From contig JAPLKC010000134.1 of assembly GCA_026388255.1 (NCBI GenBank), positions 1 to 41,691 of the forward strand: DNA of 41,691 nucleotides, written 5' to 3'. Source of the stretch: Pseudomonadota bacterium (lineage in GTDB: Bacteria > Desulfobacterota > Syntrophorhabdia > Syntrophorhabdales > Syntrophorhabdaceae). This document shows, piece after piece, positions 22,172 to 41,691 of the stretch. A program made the position numbers and the translations under genes. The number at the start of each line of letters is the position of its first letter. Positions within the stretch are counted from its first letter, which is position 1. Below the pieces are notes generated by a model. It did not search any database, was not told the origin of the DNA, and was given only the letters and a program-made list of their open reading frames with translations.

Positions 22172-23240
22172 TCACGACGAAACCTCATTAGTTTCTGAAC
22201 TCTGGGCTCTCCGTGACAAATGCGACAAGAAAAGGGCCGAAGAGATTGCCGAACGGTCACTTATTCCTCTCAAATGGATTGACAAAGCGCCGTCCCCCAA
22301 CGGGGAGAAGGGTATCGAAAAGCTCCTGGCCGAAAGAGGGGTACTCCTGCTTCGCAATCGAACTAGTCCTTTTATTGAGCAATTTCAACACCCCATCGGG
22401 CGGTGCGCCAAATTCTACAAACTCACCGCTTACAACAACTGTAACTTCTGGTGTGAATACTGTTATCTCTATTTGACGTTTCGCACAAATCCTATTTCGG
22501 CACATTTTGTAAATTATGAAAAAATGTTCAAAGAGATAGTTGCCTTTGATAAGAGCGATATACCAGAAGTGTTACGGGTACTTAATCTTGGAGAGTTATG
22601 TGATCCTTTAGCTGTCGAGAATGTAACTGGATTTGCGGAAAAACTCATACCATTTGTGGCAGAAAATACCACGAAAACAAAATTACTCTTTCTCACCAAG
22701 AGTGATAATATTGAAATATTGCGACATCTACCCCATGGTGGAAAATCAATAATGTCCTTCAGTGTCAACACCGATAAAGTCTACAAAAACCTTGAGCACC
22801 GCACGGCATCGCCAGAAGCACGATTGCTTGCCGGGCAACAATTACAAAAAGACGGATATGAGATTCGCTTGCGCTTTGACCCCATTATCATTTATGAAGG
22901 ATGGAAAGAAGACTACCTTGCCCTTGTGGATAATATCTTCCGCTATGTTAAGCCCAATCGTATTACTATGGGCGAATACAGACCATCTAAGGGTCTGGCA
23001 AATCATATCCGTTCTCGCTTCCCGGAATCTGCTCTGTTACAGATAACAAATGGACTTATCAGCGATGGCGTGAAGCTTAGGTATCCGGAGAAGAAGCGCG
23101 TTGCCGCTTTCCGCGCCATACTTGATAGGATAAGACAACACGATTCAGAGGTTAAAATCAGCCTGTGCAAAGAGAGTCCTGCGATATGGAAACAGTTGGA
23201 TATGAAGTTAAACGGGTTATACTGTAATTGTTTGGGTTAG
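22137..23240 (+). CDS. Radical-SAM protein, TcmP partner (SplB-like)
   Basis: The 367-residue protein carries the radical-SAM cysteine motif CNFWCEYC (CxxxCxxC, residues about 101-108), preceded by FYKLTAYNN and followed by a typical half-barrel. RVLNLGELCDPLAVE and KTKLLFLTKSDN resemble the spore-photoproduct-lyase/Gp37-Gp68 branch, enzymes that act on DNA or tRNA bases or are uncharacterised. The first 35 bases overlap the TcmP gene; ATG 22137 is the first in-frame start and the true start could be slightly later. It is the last gene of the plus-strand operon. The TcmP pairing is diagnostic of the three-Cys-motif system. Substrate is unknown. Confidence 0.82.
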   Translation: MMCCSRQSLLHNHDETSLVSELWALRDKCDKKRAEEIAERSLIPLKWIDKAPSPNGEKGIEKLLAERGVLLLRNRTSPFIEQFQHPIGRCAKFYKLTAYNNCNFWCEYCYLYLTFRTNPISAHFVNYEKMFKEIVAFDKSDIPEVLRVLNLGELCDPLAVENVTGFAEKLIPFVAENTTKTKLLFLTKSDNIEILRHLPHGGKSIMSFSVNTDKVYKNLEHRTASPEARLLAGQQLQKDGYEIRLRFDPIIIYEGWKEDYLALVDNIFRYVKPNRITMGEYRPSKGLANHIRSRFPESALLQITNGLISDGVKLRYPEKKRVAAFRAILDRIRQHDSEVKISLCKESPAIWKQLDMKLNGLYCNCLG

Positions 23241-25357: not shown

Positions 25358-25770
25358 GAATTTCCTCCATTTGATTTAATAATTGGTGGTTCAGCCTTTA
25401 CATTGTTTCTGGAAAGGTGTGCTTCTTCAGGACACAATCCTTTTCGAAAACACTTAGGTTTTGATCCTTTTTTTCGATATCTTTCTAAACACATGCAACA
25501 CATTGCGCTCGGCAAAATGTAGGGGCATAATTTTGTGCATGGGCAAATACCCGTGTTTTCACTCTTTCGAGGACATTTAAAACGGCGCCCATGAGCAATG
25601 GAGATATCTTTCACGGGATTTCTTCGGAACATAATACTGGCCAATACAAAATTGCCTGCCCGTCTTGCTATGGATAAACAAATGGGGACAGCATTGGTTT
25701 GAATCGATTCTTTAATGCAAAGGCAGCAGACACCTTTACATCTGAACCTTACAGCATTCAGTTTTTTCAT
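25354..25770 (-). CDS. 14-cysteine protein with duplicated CCxC motif
   Basis: The 138-residue basic protein has cysteines at 11, 15, 16, 18, 31, 66, 76, 78, 82, 91, 92, 94, 107 and 113. The segments CKGVCCLCIKE and LPSAMCCMCLER look like two copies of a CCxC motif, each followed by another Cys 12-13 residues later, which suggests metal or Fe-S binding by an internal duplication. The tail (about 115-138) is polar and free of Cys. Its first 35 bases overlap the radical-SAM gene and its stop overlaps the ATP-grasp start (ATGA). It may be an electron-transfer or metal-delivery partner, or a substrate protein. No family is recognised. Confidence 0.65.
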   Translation of the reverse strand: MKKLNAVRFRCKGVCCLCIKESIQTNAVPICLSIARRAGNFVLASIMFRRNPVKDISIAHGRRFKCPRKSENTGICPCTKLCPYILPSAMCCMCLERYRKKGSKPKCFRKGLCPEEAHLSRNNVKAEPPIIKSNGGNS

Positions 25771-26854
25771 GAGCCTGCCACATGTATATATTCATGAACA
25801 TATCGTTATAAAAACACGTGCAATTTTTTGATGTTGCAAGCCGTTTTCTTACATAGTTGAATGTATTGCCATTCCATATTTCTTTAAAAGATTGCTTTCT
25901 AAGATTGCCAACATGTTGAAGCTGCTCCACGCAGGGATATACATCACCTGTAGGGGTAATTCTTACGACCCAGTGTCCGGCTAAACATGGTAGATGACAG
26001 AAACGTTTCGGATCCTCTAAATAGTCAGGCATCAAGGCATTATAAAAATTTTTGTCCAGGCCCGTATCGTGGAGAATAGATTTCAGCTTACCGATAGATG
26101 ATACGATCTGTAAACCATCGGTCAGCCGATACAGGTTGTGAGAACCATTGTGAAGAGGCTGTAAGAGAATGCTATCTACAACTTCGTTCCAATAAGAGAC
26201 AAAAAAAGCAATTTCGTCAAGGTTATCTTCATGAAGTAACATTCTGCAGGAAATAGTTGTGCCATCTTTGATTCTTTTTTTTATGATTGATCTAATGCCT
26301 AATTCAGCATGCTGAAAAAGACCTCTTACACCTCGCATTTTATCATGGCTCTCTGGTTTTCCATCCATACTGACTATGATATGATCAGTATGAGCATTTA
26401 TAAGTGCGTCAGACCTTTCAGCCAACAGAGCGCCATTTGTACAGATACTTACGCAAAGACCAAGCTTCTTGATATAGCGAATAATATCAGGAAGATCCTT
26501 GACAAGGAGCGGTTCTCCGCCTGCTATGCATATAAAGCGGGTGCCTGCTTCTGCTAACTCCTTGATGATACGGAATATCTCATCTGTGGTCAGCTCGTCG
26601 TGTAGCTCTTGCTGTGATCTGCCGCAATGCAAGCATCTGGCCTGGCAGCGATACGATAGGTCAATAGCAGCATACTTCGGACCGGTGTTTAAATTCAATC
26701 CACAGTAAGGCGCAATAGATGAGATAGCAGCCCTTGATAACTCGGAAATTCCTTTTATAGTTCCTGTTTTTGCCCTAATGTAACTGAGGGCAGCGGTCCA
26801 TTCATGGCCATTTTGATATTTACGAAGCGGATTGTTCCGGTTGTTTTTGCTCAT
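25736..26854 (-). CDS. Radical SAM/SPASM enzyme
   Basis: The 372-residue protein has the radical-SAM motif CQARCLHC (about 70-77) after AIDLSYR, the GGEPLL strand, and VSMDGKPESHDKMRG typical of the peptide-modifying branch. The C-terminal SPASM region has CHLPCLAGHWVVRITPTGDVYPC, then VGNL, WNG, and a final Cys group (CTCF, ECC), able to hold auxiliary 4Fe-4S clusters. SPASM enzymes usually modify peptides (cross-links, epimers) or activate partners. ATG 26854 overlaps the kinase stop (ATGA) and has AGGAGG 6 bases upstream. No obvious short precursor gene with a recognisable core is adjacent, so the substrate is open. Confidence 0.9.
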   Translation of the reverse strand: MSKNNRNNPLRKYQNGHEWTAALSYIRAKTGTIKGISELSRAAISSIAPYCGLNLNTGPKYAAIDLSYRCQARCLHCGRSQQELHDELTTDEIFRIIKELAEAGTRFICIAGGEPLLVKDLPDIIRYIKKLGLCVSICTNGALLAERSDALINAHTDHIIVSMDGKPESHDKMRGVRGLFQHAELGIRSIIKKRIKDGTTISCRMLLHEDNLDEIAFFVSYWNEVVDSILLQPLHNGSHNLYRLTDGLQIVSSIGKLKSILHDTGLDKNFYNALMPDYLEDPKRFCHLPCLAGHWVVRITPTGDVYPCVEQLQHVGNLRKQSFKEIWNGNTFNYVRKRLATSKNCTCFYNDMFMNIYMWQAHEKTECCKVQM

Positions 26855-27807
26855 ATCGCCTCCTTATACTTGGTGGATTCGGCACAGAGAATCTTCGTAC
26901 CGGAATTGTCGATGTTGGTAACCATGATTTCATGTCCATACTTCCGCCAGGTGTTCACGATGGAAGGTGTGTTTGCCTTAGCGACCACGGCGGCAATGGC
27001 AGGCCCTTTGCCAGAAACCCCGGCACCTAACGCTCCTACCCTGAGGGCTTCAAAGACTGGTTCTGAAGAATAGCCAAAATGGGGGGCATGCAGTAGCCCA
27101 GAGAGTGTCATGGCGGTGAACACATGTCCCGTAGCGGCTATTCTGTAAAGCTTCTCAATAAGGTGTTTATGAACTTTTAAGGCCTCTCTAGATCCGGTAG
27201 GCACCTGCCTTGTCTCTTTAGGCGGCGCTAGGATAATGACATCCAAACCGCTATCGTCTAAATTCTCTCTATGTAGGAGCCTGCGCGACCCGCAATCGGC
27301 AAACACTAGCCCTCCACAAAGGCTGGCAAAACCGTCATCAACACTGCCAAATGTGCTTACACCCGTATCAATCTCTGCGCTCCGAGCAATCGCCATTATA
27401 TGGTTTGTTCCCAAATCCAATCCGAGGGCGTCGGACGTTGCCATCACAGTGGCGTTCGCAAGAGAGGAACTGCTCTTTAAACCCCGCTCGATCGGTAGGT
27501 CGAAATCGATATCGATCTTCGCATCGAAGGAGCGATATGCTGACGTTAGGCCTGTGGTCTTTCTAAAGCACATTTCAACGAGACGTGTCCCCTTGTCTGA
27601 AGAGTAACTGGATGCAATCCTAATCCTCGTATCACCCGATGATATAGGCTTCAGAAGGACTGTCACCGTTTGTCCCAGCCCTATAGCAAATGCCACCCCC
27701 TGTCCTGTTGAGTATGAGTTGATGACGGAACATGCTCCTGGCGCACGTGCCGATCCAATCCTGACACCATCTTCTTTCTGATCTCCTCTGTTTATCCTTA
27801 TTCCCAT
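26851..27807 (-). CDS. GHMP kinase, archaeal-type shikimate kinase family
   Basis: The 318-residue protein has the GHMP signatures: N-terminal RAPGACSVINSYSTGQGVAF, the ATP loop ERGLKSSSSLANATV (about 110-122) and a C-terminal GVSGKGPAIAAVV. The SVINSYSTGQGVAFAIGL and GLKSSSSLANA segments match archaeal shikimate kinase rather than homoserine or mevalonate kinases. Bacteria normally use the unrelated P-loop AroK, and no other shikimate gene is near, so this copy probably phosphorylates a different, pathway-specific alcohol. GGAGGAGG precedes ATG 27807. It is the first gene of a five-gene coupled operon with radical-SAM and ATP-grasp enzymes. Confidence 0.8.
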   Translation of the reverse strand: MGIRINRGDQKEDGVRIGSARAPGACSVINSYSTGQGVAFAIGLGQTVTVLLKPISSGDTRIRIASSYSSDKGTRLVEMCFRKTTGLTSAYRSFDAKIDIDFDLPIERGLKSSSSLANATVMATSDALGLDLGTNHIMAIARSAEIDTGVSTFGSVDDGFASLCGGLVFADCGSRRLLHRENLDDSGLDVIILAPPKETRQVPTGSREALKVHKHLIEKLYRIAATGHVFTAMTLSGLLHAPHFGYSSEPVFEALRVGALGAGVSGKGPAIAAVVAKANTPSIVNTWRKYGHEIMVTNIDNSGTKILCAESTKYKEAI

Positions 27808-27977: not shown

Positions 27978-28199
27978 CTACTCAGTCATTTTTCGGACAG
28001 TCTTTACTGAGTTCGTTCTGTATTTTAGCCCAAACTTATTTTCGACAGCAGATAGTGTGACCTCGCCGTGGCCAAAAAGTCGCAACCATTGTACAATATC
28101 CGCAAATAGAAGATACGTGCGTGCCTCCGCATCTGCACCTACCTCGGACCTCAGTCTTTCCATTTCTTGTTCTAATATCTCCTTTTCCTTCGCCTTCAT
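27978..28199 (-). CDS. Small unknown helical protein (73 residues)
   Basis: The start is set at ATG 28199 because AAAGGAG lies 6 bases upstream; a longer frame from a GTG would enclose that site. The first 30 residues are a strongly charged helix (KAKEKEILEQEMERLRSEV), followed by an aromatic helix and VTLSAVENKFGLKYRT, which could be half of a helix-turn-helix. The layout suggests a small regulator or binding protein. It is followed by the dyad at 27,883-27,942. The family is not recognised. Confidence 0.55.
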   Translation of the reverse strand: MKAKEKEILEQEMERLRSEVGADAEARTYLLFADIVQWLRLFGHGEVTLSAVENKFGLKYRTNSVKTVRKMTE

Positions 28200-28504
28200 A
28201 TTTGCTCCTTTAGAAGACACCGCGATTACTTGAACGCCCTTGCATAGTCACGCAACCACAACAATATCTTTTCCTTTCATGCTTTGTCATTCCCGGATCC
28301 TTCACTGAAATCATCGGAAAGTAACCTCTATGCCACTTTTAAAGCGTATCATCAAGAAAACGGTGGGTCACTAACATTGTCCTAACAACAAAAATCTATC
28401 ATTTGTCACCTAAGGAGCAATTCAAAAGAGGTCGGTTTGATGTTGCAGAAGATCAACAAAAGAGGTTTGAGCTACACATATACCACAAACAACAGATATA
28501 AAAT
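28200..28504. other. 305-base gap after the signalling operon
   Basis: No convincing gene, hairpin or repeat was seen. A plus-strand frame at 28,437-28,622 runs against the 3' end of the receiver gene and looks accidental. The promoter of the 73-residue gene should lie here. Confidence 0.4.
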
Positions 28505-29485
28505 TCAAATGCGGCGGCTCCAGAAGCCAGATCTGAGAAACATTTGTTTGGTATCCTCCTGTCGATTGGACAAGCACACAGTGTCAGTAGATAAGTCAAA
28601 TACTTCAGGTACACGTAAGTGAAGGTGTATCTCGCTTACACCGTCTATTATTTTTTTTCCCGGGTCCCTCGAAGGATGCTGGTGAATGAGCATTGCATGA
28701 TTTGTTTTCTCCGTAAAAAGCCGATTCAGATCACGGCAACTCTGAACATTATCCTGATCGGTGCTTATTACTTCACAGGACCAGTCCGTCTTACCTCTTG
28801 GTTTATCCGGGTCGAGAGCCCACTGAATGAGACGGTATGAATGTCTGGGCCGCCGGACATATTCCTCAGGAGAAGGGTCTGGTTCACCAGCCCTCGTAAA
28901 GGCAAAACTCATCTCTGTTCCATCATCTGAAGGAATTAAGACATGCATTATAAGATCAACAGCGCTCCACACGGATTTCAAAGTCTTCTTGATGGAATCT
29001 GTGTAACCCTTACGGAGCGAATTCTTACTGAGCGTGTAAGAATTTGAGTAAATTGGGGATGCGTTTATCTCAGACAGGAAATCCTGTGCATCGGGCAGAT
29101 CGTGATCATCAGCACGTAGTTCCGAGAATATTAGAATAGGTACCCCTGGCAAAGTGGCAGGTTGTCCCTCCAAACGGTAGCCTTGAAGCCCGGAGCGGAT
29201 AGCTTCATATATGTGAACTCCCTGGTCGCGTTGTCCTTTAAAAACTAAATCAAGCACAATCAAGTCGTATCGATTCCTGCAAAACAATTCCAGCCCTCTT
29301 GGTTGAAGTGCCCGCGCATTCCAGGTCTGTGCAAAATCTAGCCTACAATTTCTAGCGATTTCATCCGATAGCTCTTTAAACATTGCTTCCAACGCCGACC
29401 TATCACTCGGGCTCAGGTCGTCATCCAAGATAAGCACATTTATTGTTTGGTCAGTTTGCTTCATGGTGAAGTCCATTCCTTTCAT
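28505..29485 (-). CDS. Receiver-domain protein with unknown C-terminal domain
   Basis: The N-terminal 150 residues form a response-regulator receiver: INVLILDDD (acidic pair), YDLIVLDLVFKG (phospho-acceptor Asp) and VPILIFSEL (switch Ser). A long insertion separates the strands. The C-terminal half (about 170-326) contains AMLIHQHPSRDPGKK and a histidine-containing strand SEIHLHLRVPEVF; I do not recognise it and it is not a normal DNA-binding output domain. Its start overlaps the preceding gene by 35 bases (ATG 29464 is an alternative start). It is probably the last gene of the ABC-GHKL-serine dehydratase operon and may be phosphorylated by the GHKL protein. Confidence 0.75.
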   Translation of the reverse strand: MKGMDFTMKQTDQTINVLILDDDLSPSDRSALEAMFKELSDEIARNCRLDFAQTWNARALQPRGLELFCRNRYDLIVLDLVFKGQRDQGVHIYEAIRSGLQGYRLEGQPATLPGVPILIFSELRADDHDLPDAQDFLSEINASPIYSNSYTLSKNSLRKGYTDSIKKTLKSVWSAVDLIMHVLIPSDDGTEMSFAFTRAGEPDPSPEEYVRRPRHSYRLIQWALDPDKPRGKTDWSCEVISTDQDNVQSCRDLNRLFTEKTNHAMLIHQHPSRDPGKKIIDGVSEIHLHLRVPEVFDLSTDTVCLSNRQEDTKQMFLRSGFWSRRI

Positions 29486-30215
29486 TCAGGTAAACTCTCG
29501 TTGACAACAATTCTTCGATCACCCCAAGAACGTCTTTTAATTTAGAGGGCCACTTATCTTCCAGCAACTCGTCAACCTTCCTGATAAGCTCTATCGAAGC
29601 ATAGTCCCCTAAAATGAATCTGATTTGTCGGAGTCCTTCCATATATTTATCGATATCATCCGGAGATGACCGATATCTCGAAAACCCGTGAAACACTCTC
29701 AAGATTAACTCTGACGGCTGACAGTAATGGCGAATTTGCATCTCCGCCCTCTCATGGGTAGATTCCGGCACAACAAGAGTCGGCCAATCTGGCGGCATTT
29801 TTCTCTCAATCCGACAAAGAATCTCCGGCACATGACCGAACTTAATAATACTTGATTCGAGCCACCAGTAACTCCACGGACCCTGAGTACTTACATCATC
29901 GCTGAAAAGATCTAGAACATCGGGACGTGGTACACCATAAAAACATATAGGGCTAAGAATTTGAGCTTGTTTCCGGATTGAAAAAAGGGCGTGGCTGACC
30001 AACTGTTCACTGCTTATGCGCCATGCAACGAGAACCGGATCCGGTCTTGCACCAGGTTTTGTTTCACGTATTTCTTTCCATGATGACTCTGTATATACGT
30101 GATAAGCCTTATCATCACTAAGAAACAAGATTGCCAGAGTGCTTGCCAGTTCCCAGTCTCCCTTTTCTGATACCACAGCCACAAACTTGCCTGTCGCAAA
30201 CTTGCGCATTGTCAT
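29451..30215 (-). CDS. Unknown 254-residue protein, receiver-like N-terminus
   Basis: The N-terminal 110 residues alternate strands and helices (KFVAVVSEKGD, DPVLVAWRISSE, SPICFYGVPRPD) like a degenerate receiver fold, but the acidic pocket and Lys are not clear, so it would be a pseudo-receiver at most. The rest (about 160-254) is helical, ending in a Lys/Glu/Leu-rich segment. The start overlaps the stop of the serine dehydratase fusion (ATGA), so it is made in step with it and probably acts as a partner. No named family is recognised. Confidence 0.65.
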   Translation of the reverse strand: MTMRKFATGKFVAVVSEKGDWELASTLAILFLSDDKAYHVYTESSWKEIRETKPGARPDPVLVAWRISSEQLVSHALFSIRKQAQILSPICFYGVPRPDVLDLFSDDVSTQGPWSYWWLESSIIKFGHVPEILCRIERKMPPDWPTLVVPESTHERAEMQIRHYCQPSELILRVFHGFSRYRSSPDDIDKYMEGLRQIRFILGDYASIELIRKVDELLEDKWPSKLKDVLGVIEELLSTRVYLNERNGLHHEAN

Positions 30216-33200
30216 TTAGGGCACTCCGACTCAGTTCCTTGAAGGTTGCAGGAACTGCACTTACTTCTACCCGAAATCGTTCGTGCCAGACCTCCTAACG
30301 ATGTTTCTCTGAACTTCTCCGGCATGGCTTCACCGGCCTCTCGAAGAACCCATAGCACTTCATCGGGGAGGATGTCCGACTTCACGCCTTTATATGCAGC
30401 CACACCTGCGATGAGTGCCTCTGCAGCCTTCATGCCAGAACGTTTAATACATGGTGTCTCTACCTTGCCTCCAACTGGATCGCAGATAAGACCTATGGAA
30501 TTCTTAAGCGCGAGAGCCACTGCATTCATAACCTGTTCTTGATTATTGCCATCCCCCAAATAATCGCAGACGGCAGCAGCAGCCATTGCCGCCCCAACTC
30601 CTGTTTCCGCTTGACAGCCTAATAAGGCTCCCGCTGTCGGCACCACGTTGTTGATAATCAGCCCAACCATTCCCGATACAAGCAGCGCGCCCTCGAGCTT
30701 TTCAACCATTCTCCCGTCCAATTTCTCGAGCTTGTCCATCAGGCTATGTGGCTCGAGCTTCAGCTTATACTCCTCATCTGGGTCCTCAAGCAATTCAATA
30801 AGGCTTGCTATGATCTTATCGTTAAGAGCCAGAGCAAAGAGGGCTCCTGGAAGTATTCCGCATGCTCCAGCGGTAGGGGCGGCAATGATTCGTCCCATTC
30901 TGGCATTTTGTTCCTGGACCGCGAGCGAGAAGGCATAAGCTCGCCAAGCTAACCCAAGAGACTCATTCTGTGTTTCGAGAGGAATAGCCGCATCGTCATA
31001 GAGCTTCTGCGCCAAGTTCTTGCTATACCCTGAGTGGGCCGTCTGTCCTGGATCCAATTTCAGACCTTCCAAGATTGAGAGCAACATAACCCCAAGAACA
31101 CCACGTAAGCTCAACAACATCTCCACACCATCGGTGGATAACGTCTCACTTTCCTTCGGTTTTTGAATGGACTCCTTGTTACGTCCAGACAAACTCATCT
31201 CGTATTTTTTAGCTTTCTGCTTAATTGTTCCTTTGTTCCTAAGTGCTAAGCCCTCAAGCGTTGTGACTAATTCCGGAATAACAGAATCTTTCATGCTTTC
31301 CATGGTAGCTCCTACGCTGAAAAGCGGGCTCTCATTCTGATCTCTCATTTCTGTTATGTCCAGTTCTGTAGAACCCTCTTTGGAATAGATGAAGATTTCC
31401 TTACACCCGGAGAACTGTTTCCTATTCTCATTTAGCATATCCTCAGAAAACTGTTGGGAAAATTTTGTGCCATTGGCATTCATCTCCATTCCGCTTATCT
31501 GAACATTTCCTCCGCCCCAAGAGCGGCAAGCGAGGCGCCCAAGTTCCTGCCCCTGCTCGCCTTTTAAACGGAATTGAATTGTGTTAGGGTGTAGTTCGGA
31601 AGGGCGGTTTTCACCCCAAAGTAGTCGAATCTCTTTTACCCCGATTGAGTTATCCTCCGGCCATGTTCCTATTTCAATTTCGCGTATTTGGGATTCTGGA
31701 GACTTTATCGGGAAGAACGCGAGCCGCCCATTTGGAAGATCCTTGCTCGATGGCAACTTGCCTAGTAGTCCGGTTAGAACAGCGTGATCCGATCCATGGC
31801 CCCTCCCTGTCGTCCGGAAAGATCCAAGCATCTCGATGTCAAGAGACAGGTTGCTTCCTGCCAGCCCATTCTTTCCAATTCCCTGAATCCAGTTCCTACA
31901 CAATCTCCCTATCCGGCAAGCGCCCGCTGTATGAGAACTCGATGGTCCTACCATATCTGGTCCGACAATATCAAATATGCTCAGAGGTGAAAAATCTGAA
32001 ACCACCATGAAATGCAAGTCGTCGGAGAATCCCATCAAGGCCTGACCCATCTCCCTCCCGGTCATTCCGTCAGTTGAGATTTCGAAAACAAAAGCAGAAA
32101 TGTTATTCGAAGGACTCATTCTATCGCGTTCCTTATATTGACATTCAACCCTGAGTTTTCTATTCAGGGACCTCATAAAAACAGCGCACAATCTCTGTTT
32201 CAACTTATCTGCGTAAAAGTAAATATCTTGCTCTTGTGCCTCGGCTGGCGTTCTCATTGCTATCGCTACACGATAAATGTTGTCGTCAAATGCAAGTGGG
32301 GCGAAGACGAACCGTCGGTTCTTCTGAAGAACCTGCAGGGCGAGGACTGCTACATTGCACGGTTCGTCTTTGATACGACCCTTCGAAGCTTTGCATAACG
32401 CTTCAGCAAGTTTCTTTGCTATGGTCAATGCACCCTGGATATCTTTCGGCCCCAAAAATTCTCCTATGTATGCAGCCAGCGTTATTTCTTGGACAGATTG
32501 TACGCCCGCAAAATTAGCACACCAATCATCGAAGTCGGGATCCGAGACCCATTGTGCCAGGAATTCAAGATCTGCATATTGAGCATCGTCAACGAGGATG
32601 GCACGGCCAAGTTCAACAGTGCTTTCCAAAGTCAGGTCGTGTTTGATTCTAGGGATCTTGATCTCATCTACGTTCCAGTGTTTATAGAGGACCTTTCTGA
32701 TTGTGGATTGCCACTCTTTGGGTACAACTGAATCCGCCTTAGATTCTTGCCTTTGATTCAAATCTCCGTATTGTTGCATAAGGTAGGCGTCCGGTCTCTT
32801 GCAAAGATAGCTTACGGCACCCACGTCTCTGAAGTCATTGATTATATTTACAAATCCCCATCGAGAGGCAACAATAACAGGCGTTCCGGGAAGAAGTTGC
32901 CTCAAAGCTTCCAAGTACTCACGAGTGACATTACCATATCCTTGCCATCCAAAGTCAATGTCAAGTATTACTAAGTGTGTCGGCCCTTCTCCGGCAGATT
33001 CTTTGATTTTATCTTTTGCTCTATCAAGAAGCACTCTAGGCGATGTTATCTCTATAAATTCGTTATCCACTCTGGGAAGGCCTGTCAAGAAAGCAAATGA
33101 CCAGGGTTCCAAGGCGGCCATTCGATCAAACCAGGGGAATAGTAGCGGATAGAAATCGTCAATCACCAATATACGGAAAAGGTTTCTACTTTTACTCCCT

Positions 33201-33865
33201 AGATGAGGAAACAATTGAAGTTCATCACAAGCAATATGGAACTCTTTAATCACATAGTTTGCCAATGCTAAGATTTCCTTCCGGTCTTGATCGACGCTTC
33301 GGAACTCATCTGCAAGATCAGGAGATACAGGGTTTGACATTGGCCCTATGTAGTTTTTGATCTTTCCAACTTTGACTCCGCAGATATTTTTTGTGTCATC
33401 CATCATGGCATCCCGCAAGTGATCCCTGAAGTCCCTTAGCTTGTCGGCGCCATCTTTACTCTCTTGCGAAAATTCTTGAAAACCGTCTTGTAGAGATTCT
33501 ATCAGTTCAAAGAGACGTAAAGGACCGGCCAAGGAGCGGCCACCTTCATAATTTGTGCTTTCCTGATGCAGTTGGTCAACCTTATTTCTTACCAGATCAA
33601 AGAAATAGGGAATTAGGTCCCTAAATGGTGCTTTCATAACAGTTGTAGCTGCACCTGTTGGGGTTGAATCTTTATCTGCCACTTTCTTAAGAGTTTCCCA
33701 TATATCGAACTTAGGATTTACACTTACTATCTCCTCAATCGAGATATACTTAGAATTTTGCAAACAGCGCTGCTTTATGAATGCACCGATAGCCGAAGCA
33801 TTCGGTACTAATCTACGAGCAACTTCAATTTCCCCAACCCCCAGATATTTATCATATGTTTTCAT
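30212..33865 (-). CDS. Receiver domain fused to Fe-S L-serine dehydratase
   Basis: This 1217-residue fusion has four parts. Residues 1-225 are helical and unknown. A receiver domain (about 230-390) shows FRILVIDDFYP, phospho-acceptor Asp in LVILDIDFGW and Lys in YLCKRPDAY. A linker of about 240 residues follows. The L-serine dehydratase beta domain starts near 635 with DIVGPDMVGPSSSHTAGACR, and the alpha domain runs from about 930 to 1200 with NARMGRIIAAPTAGACGILP. The three cluster cysteines are all present: GCQAETG (about 1083), LICDPVGG (about 1125) and TPCIKRSG (about 1137). The enzyme converts L-serine to pyruvate and ammonia with an oxygen-labile [4Fe-4S] cluster. A normal serine dehydratase is about 450 residues. 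The receiver should allow phosphorylation by the GHKL protein encoded 12 bases upstream. Confidence 0.9.
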   Translation of the reverse strand: MKTYDKYLGVGEIEVARRLVPNASAIGAFIKQRCLQNSKYISIEEIVSVNPKFDIWETLKKVADKDSTPTGAATTVMKAPFRDLIPYFFDLVRNKVDQLHQESTNYEGGRSLAGPLRLFELIESLQDGFQEFSQESKDGADKLRDFRDHLRDAMMDDTKNICGVKVGKIKNYIGPMSNPVSPDLADEFRSVDQDRKEILALANYVIKEFHIACDELQLFPHLGSKSRNLFRILVIDDFYPLLFPWFDRMAALEPWSFAFLTGLPRVDNEFIEITSPRVLLDRAKDKIKESAGEGPTHLVILDIDFGWQGYGNVTREYLEALRQLLPGTPVIVASRWGFVNIINDFRDVGAVSYLCKRPDAYLMQQYGDLNQRQESKADSVVPKEWQSTIRKVLYKHWNVDEIKIPRIKHDLTLESTVELGRAILVDDAQYADLEFLAQWVSDPDFDDWCANFAGVQSVQEITLAAYIGEFLGPKDIQGALTIAKKLAEALCKASKGRIKDEPCNVAVLALQVLQKNRRFVFAPLAFDDNIYRVAIAMRTPAEAQEQDIYFYADKLKQRLCAVFMRSLNRKLRVECQYKERDRMSPSNNISAFVFEISTDGMTGREMGQALMGFSDDLHFMVVSDFSPLSIFDIVGPDMVGPSSSHTAGACRIGRLCRNWIQGIGKNGLAGSNLSLDIEMLGSFRTTGRGHGSDHAVLTGLLGKLPSSKDLPNGRLAFFPIKSPESQIREIEIGTWPEDNSIGVKEIRLLWGENRPSELHPNTIQFRLKGEQGQELGRLACRSWGGGNVQISGMEMNANGTKFSQQFSEDMLNENRKQFSGCKEIFIYSKEGSTELDITEMRDQNESPLFSVGATMESMKDSVIPELVTTLEGLALRNKGTIKQKAKKYEMSLSGRNKESIQKPKESETLSTDGVEMLLSLRGVLGVMLLSILEGLKLDPGQTAHSGYSKNLAQKLYDDAAIPLETQNESLGLAWRAYAFSLAVQEQNARMGRIIAAPTAGACGILPGALFALALNDKIIASLIELLEDPDEEYKLKLEPHSLMDKLEKLDGRMVEKLEGALLVSGMVGLIINNVVPTAGALLGCQAETGVGAAMAAAAVCDYLGDGNNQEQVMNAVALALKNSIGLICDPVGGKVETPCIKRSGMKAAEALIAGVAAYKGVKSDILPDEVLWVLREAGEAMPEKFRETSLGGLARTISGRSKCSSCNLQGTESECPK

Positions 33866-33877
33866 TATAATGACCCC

Positions 33878-36800
33878 CTAACTTGTTGGGAAGAGTTGTT
33901 CAAGGAATTCTTTATCTTTCATAAGACGTTCTTGAGTGAGTCTCCATTTCATTCCCAAAATTTTTGATGTCTCCTGAAACGTGTTGCCATAAATTGCATC
34001 AATTTTTCCCAGTATCCAGTCGATGGCGAGCCATTTCAGACTTGGATCAAAAGTCAATGATTGCCCAGTAAATAGATCAACAAACTCTAGCGCATCATGG
34101 ATTTCTTCTGGATCGTAAGGTTTCCGTGACAGGAAGTCATTTCCGAAGTGTTGGAAGAAAAAATTATGACACTTACCAAAATCGCGTTTGGTCCTTTCGA
34201 TCCTTCCTGGACCAGCTAAGTCGAAAACTATCTTCTTCTTGTTTTCAATAACATCCTTTTCATCAAGGTTGTCTTTCTTAAGTGTCTGATCACACCAATC
34301 TCGAAATTCCTGATGATATGTGCCACGAAATCCATATTGTACCCCGATGTTATAAAGCCTTGGATCTTCCGAAATAAGCCAAACAAGGATCCGTTGGGAC
34401 CCACTTTGATAGACTTCATTTGCTTGTTTACACCACTCCTCAATTTCTTTTTCATTGTATTTTGCTCTTGCTGTATGGAGTATAATAGCATGCGGTAGGC
34501 TATTATGATGTTTGCATTCTTCAAAAAAGCTCTCATGGATCGCTTCAGGCTTGTTCACACCAAACAACCTGTATCGCTCTCGGTCATCGCTTGCCGGATT
34601 AGCATCATAGATCACTACCTTATAACCATCAATAGGTTCTTGAGGTACCGTTGGGCCAGTCAAACTCTGCAGTTCACAATTCTGCAGTAACAAGAATGCC
34701 ACTTGGGTCTCCTCTCCATTGGTAGGTAGCGGCATATCAAGAATCTTCTCAGATGCGTTTACCTCTTTTTGTAATGTTTTCAAATCTTCAATAACTGCCT
34801 GGGCAGCACTCTTCCATGTTCCATCTTCTGCTATTTTATCTGGCTCAGTTATACCATCATGTCCAAGAAGGTAAAGTCTTAGTTCGCGATCCTGCACGTA
34901 TCCCCTTTGTGCTTGAAGGGTTCTCATCATGACTCGGATGCCCTGCCCGGCCCCCTCCTCTTTGCCTGCTATGCCAGGAGTTTTTGTTTGGTAGATCTCG
35001 AAGGGAAGTTTGTGGTTAATGTAGTTCCTAAGCTCCCCTTGTATGCCATGTGGTTTATTGTCCCAAAACAAAATTCCAGCTGCTCTGTGATTGTTTTCCA
35101 AATCACAAATGTGAAATGTAACGTTGATCCGCACTGCGGATTCGCTTTCCTCATTGACTACGTATTTTCCATCCACTCCTTTGTATACTGCGGCATGCTT
35201 AAAAGCGTTATGCACCAATACTTCTAAGATTGTTTCTATCACCCCAGGCAAAATATCAATAAATAAAGGACTCTCCTCATGCCATGGAACGCGATGCGCA
35301 AAAAGACGCAAACGTCTCCAATACGCGGCCTCTTTACCACCGCATAACTTTAGATCATCACTTTCTTCTGGCAAGTAAGTCCACATTTGCATCCCAGGTA
35401 ATGTGAGGAAAAGATCAAAAAGGTTCCTCATGGTCACGTGGTGGCCTGACGATTTACGTTGATGCTCCGATGACTTAGGCGCTAAAATATCAATTCCTGA
35501 TTGCATACCGGCAATTCTCTGCCTAGTGATCATGCCCGTCTTCTGAAACTTTAAATAATGCCACCTGTCTTTGATCTTTTTTGGATTAAGGTCTTTAGGC
35601 AAGCCATACCTCTCATCCCTCGGAATCAACATTTCTCCGTAGAAATCACTGGAACCCAGGTTGTGCTTGGTGAATGCATGTCCAAATTCCCGGAAATAGT
35701 CAGAGAAAACTTCGAAGGTCGCAAGTTGATTTGCAAGTTTGCCAGACATACTCGACGCCTGCCGCGCAAGCTTGACAAACCTTGAGCGAGAGAAGACGGC
35801 ATCAATTCCTGGAAAAAGAATGTTTGTCAACCATTCTATGACGTCATCCGAAAGTGCACGATGTGCCTGCTCACAAATTAACGACCGGGCAATTGCCATA
35901 ACTGTTTCACTTAGCCCAAGGACAGACATGAAAGCAATCTCGGCAATGTGCGATAATTCAACTTCCAGAATATCGGAGCAAAACGCTAACTTAGTCTTTT
36001 TGCCGTTGGCATCAATACGGTACTCTTGATTCACCCGGTAACGAGATTCCTCCAAATCTGGGTCAAACAATCTCGTCTTGCCAGATAGACAGCAAAGACC
36101 GAAACCGAGCCTTTGTTCTGGATACCAACGTATTGGAAAAACTAGTTTGTCCTTCGGCAGGCTCTCATCAAATTCTCTGATTGCTCCCGTGAGTTTATCT
36201 GCCCGGCTTTTTTCTTCAGGTTTTTCTTCAGGATAGTGATAGCCTCCATAGACACGCATCATTGCTGAACCCGACCAAGATGTTTTGAGGATATTGCTCC
36301 ACTGATCATTTAACATAGCATTCAACTCTTCACACCATTTCTTCTTTTCACTCTCGTTATAGCATTCATCATAGTGCGAAATGAGTTTTTTGAGCACTGT
36401 GCCAGCATCTGCTCCTTGCATTTTGATTCCCCTATCATAGGGGACAGAAGGAGTGAGTTTCGATGGGTTATTGAGATATATCATTGGGAAGAGGAGTGCA
36501 TAACAGAGATTATTTTCCAGTAAGGTCTTCGGGTCCTTTGGATCTTCCGGCAATTTCTTGGATATTCCCTGGCTTAACGAAAAAATCTGTTCAAGTAGTC
36601 TCGGAATTCTTGGTATGCAACAACATAGTGTTATATCGTTAGGAAATGTTTCTGGATCAAGTACCCAGCCATATTGATAACTATTTGTTCCCACCTTTAC
36701 GCTGGAAAAGCACAGAAAATGATGCCAGCGCCTGATAGTCAAGGTTCCCAGAGATAATACATATCGGATATTGTCTAAGGCATCAGAGATTAGGTTATAT

Positions 36801-37450
36801 CCAAAGTTGTCCACCTCTTCCTTCTGGTCGCCGTTGTTGGCTCCAAGCAAAACAATCTCTTCAGGTACTTTTTCTTTTCCAAAGGCTTGGTTGATTCTCT
36901 CAGAGAGCATTTTCAATTGAAAAGAGCAGTTTTTACAACTAGTTAAATCACTAAACGCCTCACTTTTTTCGGTCCTTCTCAAGAGAAGAAAAACAAGTAG
37001 GCTGCTATCTAGACAAGAGAACCGTCCAATCTCTCTTATGAAATCAGGTTTAGAATCGTTCCATGAATCCAGTTCATTCTTGAAATCATCAAAGGAAGTT
37101 TCTGGCTTGAATTCATTCCCGTTTTGCACCCACCATATATCAATGAGGGTCTCAATTTCTTTAGTATTATAGCCTATACCAAGACTGTCTAGATCGGACG
37201 ATTCAAACACCTTTCTCTCATATTTTCCTTTCTTCTCTGTAAACTTTACACAAATAAACCGGTCCCAGTTCGGATCTGGAATCCAGTTTTTCGGATAAAA
37301 TCCACAATCTTTGATTTGTAATGATAAGCAACGCTTAGAAAGAATCGGGATCAAGCTTTTCGCAATGGGATCTCCGTTTTCTATGCTTTCGCAGCGGAAC
37401 ACACACCGAAGGACTTCGATTTTCCAGTCAATATCATTACTTTCCTTCAT
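33878..37450 (-). CDS. Giant soluble GHKL ATPase, histidine-kinase-like sensor
   Basis: The 1190-residue protein has no transmembrane segment visible. The ATPase part shows an N box ETILEVLVHNAFKHAA (about 737-752), a G1-like GILFWDNKPHG (about 795-805, with Asp-Asn and Gly retained but reordered spacing) and a G2 box GAGQGIRVMMRT (about 830-842). REFGHAFTKHN near 590 is the best candidate for the phospho-acceptor histidine. A C-terminal alpha/beta segment (about 930-1060, YKVVIYDANP, HAIILHTARAKY, ILVWLISEDP) looks like a pseudo-receiver. The 550 N-terminal residues are unknown and probably sense the signal. The gene lies between the ABC importer and the receiver-serine dehydratase fusion, its likely partner. 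Confidence 0.72.
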   Translation of the reverse strand: MKESNDIDWKIEVLRCVFRCESIENGDPIAKSLIPILSKRCLSLQIKDCGFYPKNWIPDPNWDRFICVKFTEKKGKYERKVFESSDLDSLGIGYNTKEIETLIDIWWVQNGNEFKPETSFDDFKNELDSWNDSKPDFIREIGRFSCLDSSLLVFLLLRRTEKSEAFSDLTSCKNCSFQLKMLSERINQAFGKEKVPEEIVLLGANNGDQKEEVDNFGYNLISDALDNIRYVLSLGTLTIRRWHHFLCFSSVKVGTNSYQYGWVLDPETFPNDITLCCCIPRIPRLLEQIFSLSQGISKKLPEDPKDPKTLLENNLCYALLFPMIYLNNPSKLTPSVPYDRGIKMQGADAGTVLKKLISHYDECYNESEKKKWCEELNAMLNDQWSNILKTSWSGSAMMRVYGGYHYPEEKPEEKSRADKLTGAIREFDESLPKDKLVFPIRWYPEQRLGFGLCCLSGKTRLFDPDLEESRYRVNQEYRIDANGKKTKLAFCSDILEVELSHIAEIAFMSVLGLSETVMAIARSLICEQAHRALSDDVIEWLTNILFPGIDAVFSRSRFVKLARQASSMSGKLANQLATFEVFSDYFREFGHAFTKHNLGSSDFYGEMLIPRDERYGLPKDLNPKKIKDRWHYLKFQKTGMITRQRIAGMQSGIDILAPKSSEHQRKSSGHHVTMRNLFDLFLTLPGMQMWTYLPEESDDLKLCGGKEAAYWRRLRLFAHRVPWHEESPLFIDILPGVIETILEVLVHNAFKHAAVYKGVDGKYVVNEESESAVRINVTFHICDLENNHRAAGILFWDNKPHGIQGELRNYINHKLPFEIYQTKTPGIAGKEEGAGQGIRVMMRTLQAQRGYVQDRELRLYLLGHDGITEPDKIAEDGTWKSAAQAVIEDLKTLQKEVNASEKILDMPLPTNGEETQVAFLLLQNCELQSLTGPTVPQEPIDGYKVVIYDANPASDDRERYRLFGVNKPEAIHESFFEECKHHNSLPHAIILHTARAKYNEKEIEEWCKQANEVYQSGSQRILVWLISEDPRLYNIGVQYGFRGTYHQEFRDWCDQTLKKDNLDEKDVIENKKKIVFDLAGPGRIERTKRDFGKCHNFFFQHFGNDFLSRKPYDPEEIHDALEFVDLFTGQSLTFDPSLKWLAIDWILGKIDAIYGNTFQETSKILGMKWRLTQERLMKDKEFLEQLFPTS

Positions 37451-37502
37451 ATTTTTTAATATTATCTCCCTTTATTCCAAATATTCTTTTCGCAATCTCT
37501 AC

Positions 37503-38309
37503 CTACCGCATCATGGCCATCAGATCCTTTTCGGTAAGACGCAAATCCGCGTTGTTCAGGTCGGATGTAATCATCCCATCTTGAAGAACCATTACTCTCT
37601 CGCATCGCTCTGCAATATCTCGAAGGCGATGAGAGACAAGGATGACCGTGCCCTTTCTAATCTTCATCTCTGATAGAGCCAAATCAAGAATTCTTTCGCC
37701 AGCGTACGGGTCGAGAGCGGCGGTTGGTTCGTCAAGGAGCAAAACCGCTTCCGGGTATTCGATTGCGAGTAAAACTGACAGTGCTTGTTGCTGACCTCCG
37801 GAAAGGAATCTCACTTGCTCCTTGAGCTTGTCTTCCAAGCCCATTCTTGCTTTGCTCAGAAGCTGGCGGCATTGCTCTTTCACTCGTTTGGAATAAGCCC
37901 ACATGAGACCTCCCATCTCATGGTTTCCTGCAAGTACATAATTTTCAAACACAGTCATGGTAGGAGCCAATCCGGCATCGGATCTTTGTGAAATGAGAGA
38001 GACTTTGGGTCGACTTACTAGATGCCCCTTCGCGGAGACGGTCGTTGATCCAATCTGTACATAGCCCGCGTCGGGCACAAGAAATCCACGGATGATACTT
38101 AATAAGGTTGACTTACCTGAAGCGTTCCTGCCAACCAATCCGACGCTCTGCCCATATGGTATAGTAAAGTTTGTTCCGTTGAGGACATCAAAGCGCACTC
38201 CTCCCTGCAATCTGTATGCAAAATTAACGTTTTGCACACTAATGGCGCAATCGCCCCGCGCAGCAGGGTTAGATGCTTCGGTTTCCGATTTGTCTCGTAA
38301 CTGATCCAT
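37503..38309 (-). CDS. ABC transporter ATP-binding protein (TrpXYZ type)
   Basis: The 268-residue protein has Walker A GLVGRNASGKST, a Q-loop region, signature LSGGQQQALSVLLAI (the usual R after the Qs is A), Walker B AVLLLDEPTAALDP and an H loop ILVSHRL. It energises import through the permease encoded upstream; the two genes overlap by 41 bases. It is the third gene after the binding protein and permease. The GHKL gene follows after 52 bases, so transport and signalling genes are probably co-transcribed. Confidence 0.92.
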   Translation of the reverse strand: MDQLRDKSETEASNPAARGDCAISVQNVNFAYRLQGGVRFDVLNGTNFTIPYGQSVGLVGRNASGKSTLLSIIRGFLVPDAGYVQIGSTTVSAKGHLVSRPKVSLISQRSDAGLAPTMTVFENYVLAGNHEMGGLMWAYSKRVKEQCRQLLSKARMGLEDKLKEQVRFLSGGQQQALSVLLAIEYPEAVLLLDEPTAALDPYAGERILDLALSEMKIRKGTVILVSHRLRDIAERCERVMVLQDGMITSDLNNADLRLTEKDLMAMMR

Positions 38310-39162
38310 ATTGACTTCTTATCCTATCCATACCGATGAAAACAAGTGCTAGAATAGCGGTTGTCACCTTGAGGTCTGCCGCAGCAAGGCCCAATCTCAG
38401 GGCAATTGCCACAATACCTTGATAAATCACCATACCGGCGATCGGCGCGAGCATGAGGGTTCCGACACGCTCGGGACGTATGAGTGTTTCACCCATTACT
38501 ATTGCAGCCAGAGAGATGATCACAAGACCGCCCCCCATCGAGACATCAACAAAGCCTTGGTATTGGGCAACCAATGAGCCTGCCCATCCAGAAATTGCGT
38601 TTACAATGGCAAGTCCTAAAATATAGTTGCTTTCACGAGGCAGACCGCGTAGCTCTAGTGCCGTGGAAGAATCACCTGTTGCACGTAATCTGAGCCCTAC
38701 TGGTGTCCAAAGAAGTGCGCATACAGCCAAATACACGAACAAGCAGGCTGACGATATGACAAGAAGAGGAAGCAGGCTGTCCCTTTGCATGACCAGGGAG
38801 CTAATAAAAGAATCTGCATTCATCAAGGATAGGTTCGATGTCCCCATTATTCGCAATGAAACCGAGTACAGGATCAACATGAGGAGAATTCCGCTGAGTA
38901 GCTTAGAGACGCGAAGCCTTGTATGCAAGAGGGCAGTTAGCATTCCCGCAAATGCACCCATCGCAAGCGAGACTATCATCGCGATCCAACTGGGGACCCC
39001 AGATAATAGCAGTACCCCAGAAACGGAGGCACCTAAGGTAAATGACCCATCAGGAGTAAGATCCGGAAATCCGATTACTCGGAAAGCCAAAATTACTGCT
39101 ATTGCTTGAATGGAATACAAAAGCGCTATCTGAAGGGTCGTATCTACTGCACCTATGATCAC
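38269..39162 (-). CDS. ABC transporter permease (branched-chain/TrpY type)
   Basis: The 297-residue protein is an integral membrane protein with about eight hydrophobic segments and the BPD_transp_2 pattern, including FPDLTPDGSFTLGASVSG near the N-terminus and GLRLRATGDSSTALELRG in a cytoplasmic loop that contacts the ATPase. The start is GTG at 39162, overlapping the binding-protein stop (GTGA). It forms the membrane channel of a TrpXYZ-type importer for amino acids or related small molecules. Confidence 0.92.
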   Translation of the reverse strand: MIIGAVDTTLQIALLYSIQAIAVILAFRVIGFPDLTPDGSFTLGASVSGVLLLSGVPSWIAMIVSLAMGAFAGMLTALLHTRLRVSKLLSGILLMLILYSVSLRIMGTSNLSLMNADSFISSLVMQRDSLLPLLVISSACLFVYLAVCALLWTPVGLRLRATGDSSTALELRGLPRESNYILGLAIVNAISGWAGSLVAQYQGFVDVSMGGGLVIISLAAIVMGETLIRPERVGTLMLAPIAGMVIYQGIVAIALRLGLAAADLKVTTAILALVFIGMDRIRSQYGSVTRQIGNRSI

Positions 39163-40160
39163 TGTTTAATGACCTTCGCTTTTTGAAGAAGGGATTTGGG
39201 GAATTCTACTCCTTGCTGTCTGGCAGCTTCTAGGTTGATAATCAAACGATTCGCGGCCCCAAACATGACTGGAATGGAACCCGGAGGAGTTCCTCCTAAT
39301 ACTTTAACAGCAATTTCTCCGGTGGCACGACCCAGTTGAAGATAGTCAATCCCAATGGTAGCCACAGCTCCCATTTCCACACTTCCTTCATCACCGACAA
39401 ACAAGGGAATTTTATTCGCTCGCGCTACGTTGATCACAGCGTCCAAAGCAGAAAGAACCGTGTTATCAGCAGGCATGTAAAATATGTCACATCTTCCGAC
39501 CAAAGACTGTGCAGCAGGAAGAACTTCTGATGTATTGGCAACAGAAGCTTCAACCTTCAGGAACTTCCATTTGTTTAGCAAACTGTCAATAATCTTTATG
39601 GAAGCTACACTATTGGCTTCACCCGGATTCCTTATGATACCTATAACCCTAGCATTCGGTAAGAGAGTTCTAATCAGTTGCAACTGTTCGTCGTATGGTC
39701 CTATATCACTTGTGCCTGTACAATTACCTCCTGGAGCTTTCATCGATTTCACCACACCTGCGGAAACAGGATCGGTCATAGCTCCAAATATGATGGGAAT
39801 TTTCAAAGTGGCTCTTTTTGTAGCTTGTACAGACGGGGTTCCCACGGCCAGTATGAGATTGGGTTTTTCAGCCACCTGCTTTCTGGCTATCTGGGTAGCT
39901 ATAGAAATATCTCCGGTGGCATTTTGAAGATCGTATTTAACGGCGGTGTTCTTACTGACCGCCCACCTATCTACAACTTCTTTGAACCCATTGTAAACGG
40001 CATCAATATTGGGATGATGCACGTACAGGTTAACACCTATTTTGACCGGTTTAGGTTTCTTCTCGTCAGCTGAAGTGTAGCCTGGGATAAACATAGACAA
40101 TGCAAAAGCGAAGACAATCATGCGGCGGCAGATGTTTTTACGAGACAACAACCAATTCAT
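39159..40160 (-). CDS. ABC substrate-binding protein, TrpX-like (PF04392 family)
   Basis: The 333-residue protein has a signal peptide (MNWLLSRKNICRRM, a hydrophobic core, then TSA before DEKK), so it is exported to the periplasm. The mature part has two lobes with the family landmarks LILAVGTPSVQA, IPIIFGAMTDPVSAG, FYMPADNTVLSA and VATIGIDYLQLGR. Members bind aromatic or other amino acids or purines; with a serine dehydratase in the same operon, serine or a serine-containing compound is a reasonable guess. AGGAGG lies 5 bases before ATG 40160. It is the first gene of the ABC set. Confidence 0.92.
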   Translation of the reverse strand: MNWLLSRKNICRRMIVFAFALSMFIPGYTSADEKKPKPVKIGVNLYVHHPNIDAVYNGFKEVVDRWAVSKNTAVKYDLQNATGDISIATQIARKQVAEKPNLILAVGTPSVQATKRATLKIPIIFGAMTDPVSAGVVKSMKAPGGNCTGTSDIGPYDEQLQLIRTLLPNARVIGIIRNPGEANSVASIKIIDSLLNKWKFLKVEASVANTSEVLPAAQSLVGRCDIFYMPADNTVLSALDAVINVARANKIPLFVGDEGSVEMGAVATIGIDYLQLGRATGEIAVKVLGGTPPGSIPVMFGAANRLIINLEAARQQGVEFPKSLLQKAKVIKQ

Positions 40161-40292: not shown

Positions 40293-40466
40293 TTACACGC
40301 CGGATTTAACAGCAACGAGCGGTGGCATTATCTTCTTCATTAAAAAGGCCACTGCAAGAACCGTATCCGGTTGATCCCAGCCACTTTCTTCAAGCCCCGA
40401 TCGGATAGTTCGCTCAAGCTCCCGCTCAAACTTGTTCAATATATCATCATGGTTAAAGAGTTCCAT
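40293..40466 (-). CDS. Small helical protein next to methylthiotransferase gene
   Basis: The 57-residue protein from ATG 40466 has GGAGG 8 bases upstream. A second in-frame start, TTG 40490, also has a good AAAGGAGG site, so a 65-residue form is possible. The sequence is acidic-basic amphipathic (NKFERELERTIRSGLEESG), then hydrophobic (TVLAVAFLMKKIMPPLV), and lacks Cys. It lies 54 bases (30 from the TTG) after the radical-SAM gene. It could be a small partner or a modified peptide, but no family is recognised. Confidence 0.55.
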   Translation of the reverse strand: MELFNHDDILNKFERELERTIRSGLEESGWDQPDTVLAVAFLMKKIMPPLVAVKSGV

Positions 40467-40520
40467 AAGCCTTTCCTCCAGCAAATTCAACGTAACCCTC
40501 CTTTATGTTTTCTTTCGTTT

Positions 40521-41691
40521 TCATGAGCGAGATCCGCATCGAACTTCCTTCTCTGTCCCCGTATCTTCACAGTTATCCCCTCCCTTATTTAGCAAGAGAT
40601 CTTCTTCTTTCTGCGGTGAAACCCCATTAACCCCATTCGGAAAATTAAAATGAACTGGCAAGCCGTTACCGTCTTCCATTACTCGCCTCAGTCCTTCGAT
40701 ATTGCAAATGCTATTCGATGATAAAAACTGCTTTAAAAAATCTTTGAAAAGTATTTGCCGCCTCTGTTCCTTAACCTCCTCCGGAATTTTTGGTGTAAGC
40801 TTTGAAGCTCTAGTCTCGGGGCGATCTTCATAAGTGAAAATCTCAAGGAAATGGAAGGGAAAAGCATTTAGGAGAAGTCTTGTTTCTCCGAAATCGAAAT
40901 CAGTTTCTGATGGAAACCCAACCATGAAGTCAGTGCATATCTTTACGTTAGGAAAAGCATCATAAAGATCACCTAAGATCTTTCTAATTTCGAAAATATT
41001 GTGCTGTCTCCTCATCAACTTAAGAACACGGTCAGAGCCCGATTGAATGGGAACAGAAAATTTCTTCGCTATCCTATCGGAATGCAGTAAGTCAATTAAT
41101 TCTGTTCCGTAATGGCATAGCCAATTAGGATTTAGGTTGTCCAGATATAATTCAATGTCAAAATCAGTGCTTATAATTGCTCTCAAGAGCTCGATAATTG
41201 ATGTATTCCTATCAAGTCCATAAGCACCTAAATCTTCTGAAATGATCTTTATTCTCCTAAAACCATGCTCTATGGCATCCTGTATGTCTCTTTTTATGTC
41301 TCCAATGCTACGACTTCTTGTTCTTCCATTTGCAAAAGGTATCGCGCAATAAGTACAGTATCCCATACAGCCGGTCGAAATTCGGATTGCTTTTCGTTTA
41401 CCATCCTCAGGCTCCTCAACAATTGGGGGAATAGTCTCAATCTTCACTCTTGTTGAAATAAGGTTATTGAGGCTATCTATCGTTCTAGGAGAAAAAACAA
41501 AACCGTGGAAAGCTTCTCGCAATCGATTGCCATTTATTGACGGTAAACAGCCGCCCACTACAATCTGGGATTCAAGCTTCTTTGTCTGTATTAACTGATT
41601 AAGACGATTCATGTTGTAATTTTCAGCAGCCTGTGAAAAGGCACATGTCATCAAGATTATAACCGAGGCATTCTCGTATGACGCCATGTGC
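40521..41691 (-). CDS. Radical-SAM methylthiotransferase-like protein, 5' end outside window
   Basis: The frame is open to the window edge. The visible start (MASYENASVIILMTCAFS) corresponds to the middle of the MiaB/RimO N-terminal domain, so the true start lies beyond 41,691. Landmarks are MTCAFSQAAENY and VVGGCLPS of the first cluster domain (an earlier Cys should be off-window), then radical-SAM CMGYCTYC followed by CAIPFANGRTRSRS, and VPIQSGSDRVLKLMRR. Methylthiotransferases add a methylthio group to tRNA or a ribosomal protein using two Fe-S clusters. The usual C-terminal TRAM RNA-binding domain is not evident; the tail is short and polar. The substrate may therefore not be tRNA. Confidence 0.82.
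   Translation of the reverse strand, partial: HMASYENASVIILMTCAFSQAAENYNMNRLNQLIQTKKLESQIVVGGCLPSINGNRLREAFHGFVFSPRTIDSLNNLISTRVKIETIPPIVEEPEDGKRKAIRISTGCMGYCTYCAIPFANGRTRSRSIGDIKRDIQDAIEHGFRRIKIISEDLGAYGLDRNTSIIELLRAIISTDFDIELYLDNLNPNWLCHYGTELIDLLHSDRIAKKFSVPIQSGSDRVLKLMRRQHNIFEIRKILGDLYDAFPNVKICTDFMVGFPSETDFDFGETRLLLNAFPFHFLEIFTYEDRPETRASKLTPKIPEEVKEQRRQILFKDFLKQFLSSNSICNIEGLRRVMEDGNGLPVHFNFPNGVNGVSPQKEEDLLLNKGGDNCEDTGTEKEVRCGSRS

Follow-up and report, generated by a model that had tools for sequence, protein, structure and literature searches.

We analysed a stretch of DNA of 41,691 nucleotides (the window), the left half of an 84.9-kb contig (JAPLKC010000134.1, assembly GCA_026388255.1) from a bacterium of the family Syntrophorhabdaceae. 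In it, seven minus-strand open reading frames (ORFs) at 28505-40160 are packed with overlaps or gaps of 52 bases or less. In gene order, they encode the TrpX-like substrate-binding protein (39159-40160), the permease (38269-39162) and the ATPase (37503-38309) of an ATP-binding cassette (ABC) importer; a divergent 1190-residue protein, probably a GHKL-type ATPase (33878-37450); a 1217-residue fusion of a receiver with a serine dehydratase (SDH) (30212-33865); a 254-residue protein without a family match in any library (29451-30215); and a 326-residue protein with an N-terminal receiver (28505-29485). The six junctions are a 4-nt overlap, a 41-nt overlap, a 52-nt gap, a 12-nt gap, a 4-nt overlap and a 35-nt overlap. 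A preliminary description of this DNA had proposed these seven genes as one operon, and all of the ORFs were found where it had placed them. Its importer, GHKL-like ATPase, receiver-SDH fusion and second receiver were all recovered by Pfam, by profiles or by motif residues. Here, we ask whether the set may form a signalling relay with an enzyme as its output.

The fusion carries its receiver at about residues 230-360, SDH_beta at 638-789 and SDH_alpha at about 977-1194. Both dehydratase domains are strong Pfam matches (SDH_alpha 3e-50, SDH_beta 8e-18). When aligned with SdaA of E. coli and with 4RQO from Legionella, the fusion keeps the motif GPSSSHT, His690 and the cluster cysteines Cys1084, Cys1128 and Cys1139. 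His690 aligns with His61 of the Legionella serine dehydratase, which is its likely catalytic base (PMC12647591). Because the catalytic histidine, the motif and the three cluster cysteines are all present, the dehydratase of the fusion looks intact. There are also cysteines near the C-terminus of the fusion, where the Legionella enzyme has an inhibitory tail cysteine. The fusion is the sole match to PF03315 (SDH_beta) in its genome. This family is present in 19 of 297 genomes of the phylum; no fused SDH_beta was found elsewhere among the 297, and their other PF03315 open frames were all 672 codons or shorter.

The same relay might act on a substrate other than L-serine, such as cysteine, threonine or an imported modified serine, and would then belong to a catabolic or detoxifying pathway. 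The NCBIfam serine-lyase models match the fusion under their cut-offs (199.3 bits for TIGR00720, with an equivalog cut-off of 345.1), cysteine desulfidase has the same catalytic fold as SDH (PMC12647591), and the binding protein of the importer is TrpX-like yet under the TrpX cut-off. However, SDH_beta accompanies SDH_alpha in the fusion, and the histidine of the serine enzymes and GPSSSHT are conserved. We therefore regard a different substrate as rather unlikely.

The receiver of the fusion carries all five catalytic residues (D236, D237, D302, S334 and K356), as does that of the 326-residue protein (D21, D22, D79, S121 and K154). When compared with a receiver profile made from 81 sequences, mostly from this genome, the fusion receiver scored 14.9 bits against a maximum of 4.0 among 500 locally shuffled copies, and the 326-residue protein scored 9.8 bits against a maximum of 5.9 in 500 shuffles. 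PF00072 was the sole Pfam match of each receiver segment taken in isolation, with 15.9 and 13.0 bits, under the gathering cut-off of 30.2. A phmmer search related the 326-residue protein to ordinary stand-alone receivers in three genomes of one genus (E about 1e-6, in a small database). By its residues and profile score, then, this protein is a receiver. In the remaining parts of the fusion, residues 1-230 had no match and residues 400-620 only one to a chance-level family. A common ancestry of the two receivers was considered and rejected, as they gave no significant alignment. The 254-residue protein was likewise rejected as a degenerate receiver, its receiver-profile score being at shuffle level.

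In the 1190-residue protein, we located an N box (N748), a G1 box (D797) and a G2 box (G833-G837). A HATPase profile built from 50 local kinase sequences aligned these boxes in register, weakly, with 8.3 bits as compared with a maximum of 4.2 in 500 shuffles, so that the GHKL assignment is probable. The protein had no match in Pfam (E up to 1), PADLOC, NCBIfam, PHROGs or PDB, and its N- and C-terminal thirds had no match in any library. The GHKL call, like those of the two receivers, lies under every library cut-off and rests on the profile-versus-shuffle tests and on motif residues. AlphaFold predictions made without an alignment were unusable (predicted local distance difference test 32.5 for the whole protein and 37.8 for the ATPase segment).

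There is nothing unusual about the importer, a TrpXYZ-type cassette with an adjacent PF04392 binding protein (E 7e-77), PF02653 permease and PF00005 ATPase; the ABC domains are strong Pfam matches. The binding protein scored 251.6 bits with the TrpX model NF041285, under its equivalog cut-off of 390. Its relatives were found in 66 of the 297 phylum genomes. We inspected 9-16 kb around 20 of them: a permease match was present in 19 and an ATPase match in 18, in the cassette order seen here, and the GHKL protein, the fusion, its SDH part and the 254- and 326-residue proteins were present in none (0/20). The tie of the importer to the other four genes is therefore known at one locus only. In a side observation on this binding-protein family, one 940-codon open frame (G000:C89:86843-88654) carries two TrpX-like binding domains in tandem; further genomes of the phylum share this arrangement, in which the family probably serves a sensory purpose.

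These neighbourhoods bear on whether the seven genes are one unit at all. A common importer cassette, widespread in the phylum and standing alone there, could by chance have come to lie ahead of a four-gene GHKL-receiver-SDH module to which it is unrelated, at a distance of 52 bases, and that gap, between the importer ATPase gene and the GHKL gene (37450-37503), is the widest spacing in the operon. Against this, both parts are on the same strand, the gap is without a terminator and the entire set closes at one terminator. We consider chance adjacency to be unlikely.

The preliminary description had placed the ABC genes in one operon with the rest. A scan detected no terminator-like site in any junction. 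Promoter- and terminator-like matches across the operon were no commoner than in shuffled sequences. Shine-Dalgarno-like runs precede several of the starts. Downstream, an intrinsic terminator on the same strand (about 27942-27883) has a 16-bp stem, a U-rich tail, a folding energy of -43 kcal/mol and a z-score of -5.1, and stands between the operon and an archaeal-type shikimate kinase gene; the loop limit of the scan had concealed it. A search for riboswitches or other RNAs gave none. The tight packing on one strand and the downstream terminator count for the reading as one unit, and from the arrangement we infer co-transcription of the seven genes.

The transcription unit may extend beyond them, because a small ORF of 73-80 residues (27978-28220, minus strand), with a Shine-Dalgarno-like run, is the last before the terminator, and because two further genes lie upstream on the same strand. 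These are a small TTG-started ORF with a good Shine-Dalgarno sequence (about 40294-40491) and, on its far side from the importer, a MiaB-like methylthiotransferase gene (40521-41691) that runs past the window end and is a possible upstream member. The membership of both small ORFs is uncertain. The MiaB-like frame is broken by an ambiguous assembly base near 41691 (L035:658-750), and its N-terminus resumes in another frame outside the window.

We favour, with a probability of roughly 0.45, the reading that these genes form a horizontally acquired two-component-type module with enzymatic output, controlling the deamination of serine or of a similar, perhaps imported, substrate. The GHKL protein would respond to a signal and phosphorylate Asp302 of the fusion receiver and Asp79 of the 326-residue receiver. 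In the fusion, this phosphorylation would switch the [4Fe-4S] L-serine dehydratase, an enzyme that would form pyruvate and ammonia from L-serine or a close analogue. The second receiver and the 254-residue protein could act as a phosphate sink, an adaptor or a second output. The TrpXYZ-type importer would probably take up whichever amino acid the module senses or breaks down, as cyuPA and similar operons do by pairing import with a lyase. The gene order, the catalytic residues of the receivers and the SDH, the island position and, weakly, the GHKL boxes can be read from the sequence; the phosphotransfer, the direction of control, the substrate and the role of the importer are what we infer. 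The preliminary description had called the locus a self-contained circuit. Phospho-controlled deamination is plausible, because the fusion retains the catalytic residues of both receiver and dehydratase; the importer as an inherent part of the circuit was not supported by the 20 neighbourhoods.

Several points weigh against the proposed relay, one being that importer result. The GHKL score is weak, and kinase activity would have to be assumed from it. A histidine phospho-acceptor domain was not recognisable in the GHKL protein: residues 560-730 gave no Pfam match, and several histidines occur there. With scores under the equivalog cut-offs, the SDH matches do not pin down the substrate. The scope for comparison is also narrow. 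Beyond generic receivers, no relative of the four novel proteins (the GHKL protein, the fusion and the 254- and 326-residue proteins) was found in about 300-345 phylum genomes, or in 46 genomes of the class that include the congener; the GHKL search covered 345 phylum genomes, and the fusion was looked for there by its N-terminus. None of the four had a relative in plasmids, and the GHKL protein had none in phages. Viral contigs held no relative of the GHKL protein, the fusion N-terminus or the 326-residue protein. Two pattern scans of genome contigs gave no relative of the GHKL protein; the second, which covered viral and genome contigs, used a hand-made degenerate alignment of the N, G1 and G2 boxes. 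Such scans require exact short matches and would miss distant relatives, and the whole-genome searches covered one phylum. Without homologues, conservation of the gene set, of its linkage and of the active-site residues cannot be shown.

The missing phospho-acceptor domain, together with library scores under the cut-offs for both receivers and the GHKL protein, would also fit receivers or a GHKL protein that are degenerate, the fused N-terminus being a protein-interaction or allosteric domain without phosphotransfer. Degenerate receivers usually lose catalytic residues. Both receivers here keep every one of them, and we find this explanation highly improbable.

The surroundings of the operon suggest an acquired origin. 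To the right of the window, a tRNA-Arg(CCG) gene is present at C134:48408-48484 (L035:7409-7485), where C134 denotes this contig, with a tyrosine recombinase directly before it. A partial copy of the tRNA 3'-end (27 nt, 89%) lies 6.2 kb from the tRNA-Arg gene, at C134:42184-42210 (L035:1185-1211). Together, the tRNA gene, the recombinase and the 3'-end copy make up a small integrated module that borders a larger island. To the right of the tRNA-Arg gene, a congener is syntenic with this contig at 77-84% identity, and the 18.5 kb to the left of the tRNA-Arg gene in the congener showed no nucleotide similarity with this contig. Because synteny with the congener is seen only on the right side, the operon lies in an acquired or lineage-specific island, the left end of which is undefined. 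The island cargo is mixed, with an HD-CE protein, a PLD helicase, a type IIG-like enzyme, a second integrase, a topoisomerase VI-like protein and metabolic genes.

This setting makes a role in defence or conflict possible, given also the analogy with the HEF_HK/Response_reg_2 pairs discussed below. An intruder would activate the GHKL sensor and turn on the fusion, serine would be depleted or reactive aminoacrylate made, and growth of the infected cell would stop. The island at tRNA-Arg carries recombinases and is not in the congener at that site; the HD-CE protein, the PLD helicase and the type IIG-like enzyme are within 30 kb; the lack of relatives in the class fits fast-moving cargo; and pairs of GHKL and receiver proteins near restriction-modification genes have been described (PMC8011034). 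On the other hand, the four novel proteins had no PADLOC match and the ABC ATPase only generic ATPase matches, and no defence system based on a serine dehydratase was found in the literature searched. The cargo includes metabolic genes. An importer of the same metabolite would counteract depletion and suits catabolism better. Nothing in the operon itself requires defence. The preliminary description had raised a defence-like depletion of serine, and the association with island genes is what speaks for it. We judge a defence role to be improbable. Its specific form would be a new kind of signalling-conflict system: on detecting a phage or other intruder, a divergent GHKL sensor would phosphorylate a receiver and so turn on an Fe-S serine dehydratase, which would starve the cell of serine. 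This form seems to us quite doubtful.

Some of the neighbouring genes deserve description in their own right. On the integrase module, C134:42721-45738 (L035:1722-4739) encodes a protein of 1005 residues whose N-terminus looks GHKL-like by eye and which matches the Spo11/TOP6A Toprim family slightly below the cut-off; it may be a topoisomerase VI-like enzyme in a single chain (topoisomerase VIII-type). The gene beyond the terminator (window 26851-27807) encodes an archaeal-type GHMP shikimate kinase, over the NCBIfam cut-off, in a bacterium. This gene had raised the idea that the DNA is archaeal, which we rejected because flagellar and further bacterial genes are found on other contigs. It is followed by genes for a radical SAM/SPASM protein, a Cys-rich protein and an ATP-grasp protein (24119-26854), and maybe forms a biosynthetic cluster with these neighbours. 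At 20996-23240, a PDC-M30A-like candidate-defence protein overlaps a spore-photoproduct-lyase-like radical SAM protein. Positions 11918-19283 hold, on one strand, a PLD/SNF2 helicase, two unassigned genes and part of a type IIG-like restriction-methyltransferase, a probable restriction-type defence locus. At 2478-8797, an HD-CE conflict-type protein overlaps a 922-residue orphan, and a 647-residue orphan adjoins.

The combination of importer, GHKL ATPase and receiver-SDH fusion was seen once, and nowhere else in the genomes searched. Its parts can be compared with known systems. The importer resembles the TrpXYZ tryptophan/tyrosine-type importer (NF041285) in its families, PF04392, PF02653 and ABC ATPase, and in their order, and differs in a binding protein under the TrpX equivalog cut-off. 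The dehydratase is like the SdaA/SdaB [4Fe-4S] L-serine dehydratase (PDB 4RQO, PF03313 and PF03315) in its beta-alpha order, GPSSSHT, catalytic histidine and three cluster cysteines. Unlike SdaA/SdaB, it carries a receiver in a long N-terminal extension, its parts are separated by insertions, and its scores are under the NCBIfam equivalog cut-offs.

In cyuPA, an importer and an Fe-S lyase ferment an imported amino acid (PMC9040844). Here too, an importer adjoins an Fe-S lyase that would yield pyruvate and ammonia. The importer belongs to another family, however, and the control of cyuPA is transcriptional, whereas control here would apparently be by phosphorylation. The HEF_HK/Response_reg_2 pairs (PF19191 and PF19192; PMC8011034) also place a divergent GHKL protein beside a divergent receiver, in islands with restriction-modification genes. 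Our proteins gave no match to PF19191 or PF19192, whether searched whole (E up to 1) or as segments (E up to 10). They also differ from those pairs in the enzyme joined to a receiver and in the importer genes upstream.

Should the receiver gate the dehydratase, a central amino-acid-degrading enzyme would be under direct post-translational two-component control. The kinase-receiver pair has diverged so far that none of the three domains is picked up by a standard Pfam scan. Neither a serine dehydratase as a two-component output nor a receiver fused to an Fe-S serine dehydratase was found in the literature searched. Response regulators with a metabolic enzyme as output are a known class with a narrow and sporadic distribution (PMC5847659), and the present fusion, if the proposed relay is true, would add to their short list. 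Like them, it joins a receiver to a metabolic enzyme and is sporadic. It departs from them in its output, an Fe-S serine dehydratase, in its internal and divergent receiver, and in its partner, a giant GHKL protein lacking any recognisable phospho-acceptor domain.

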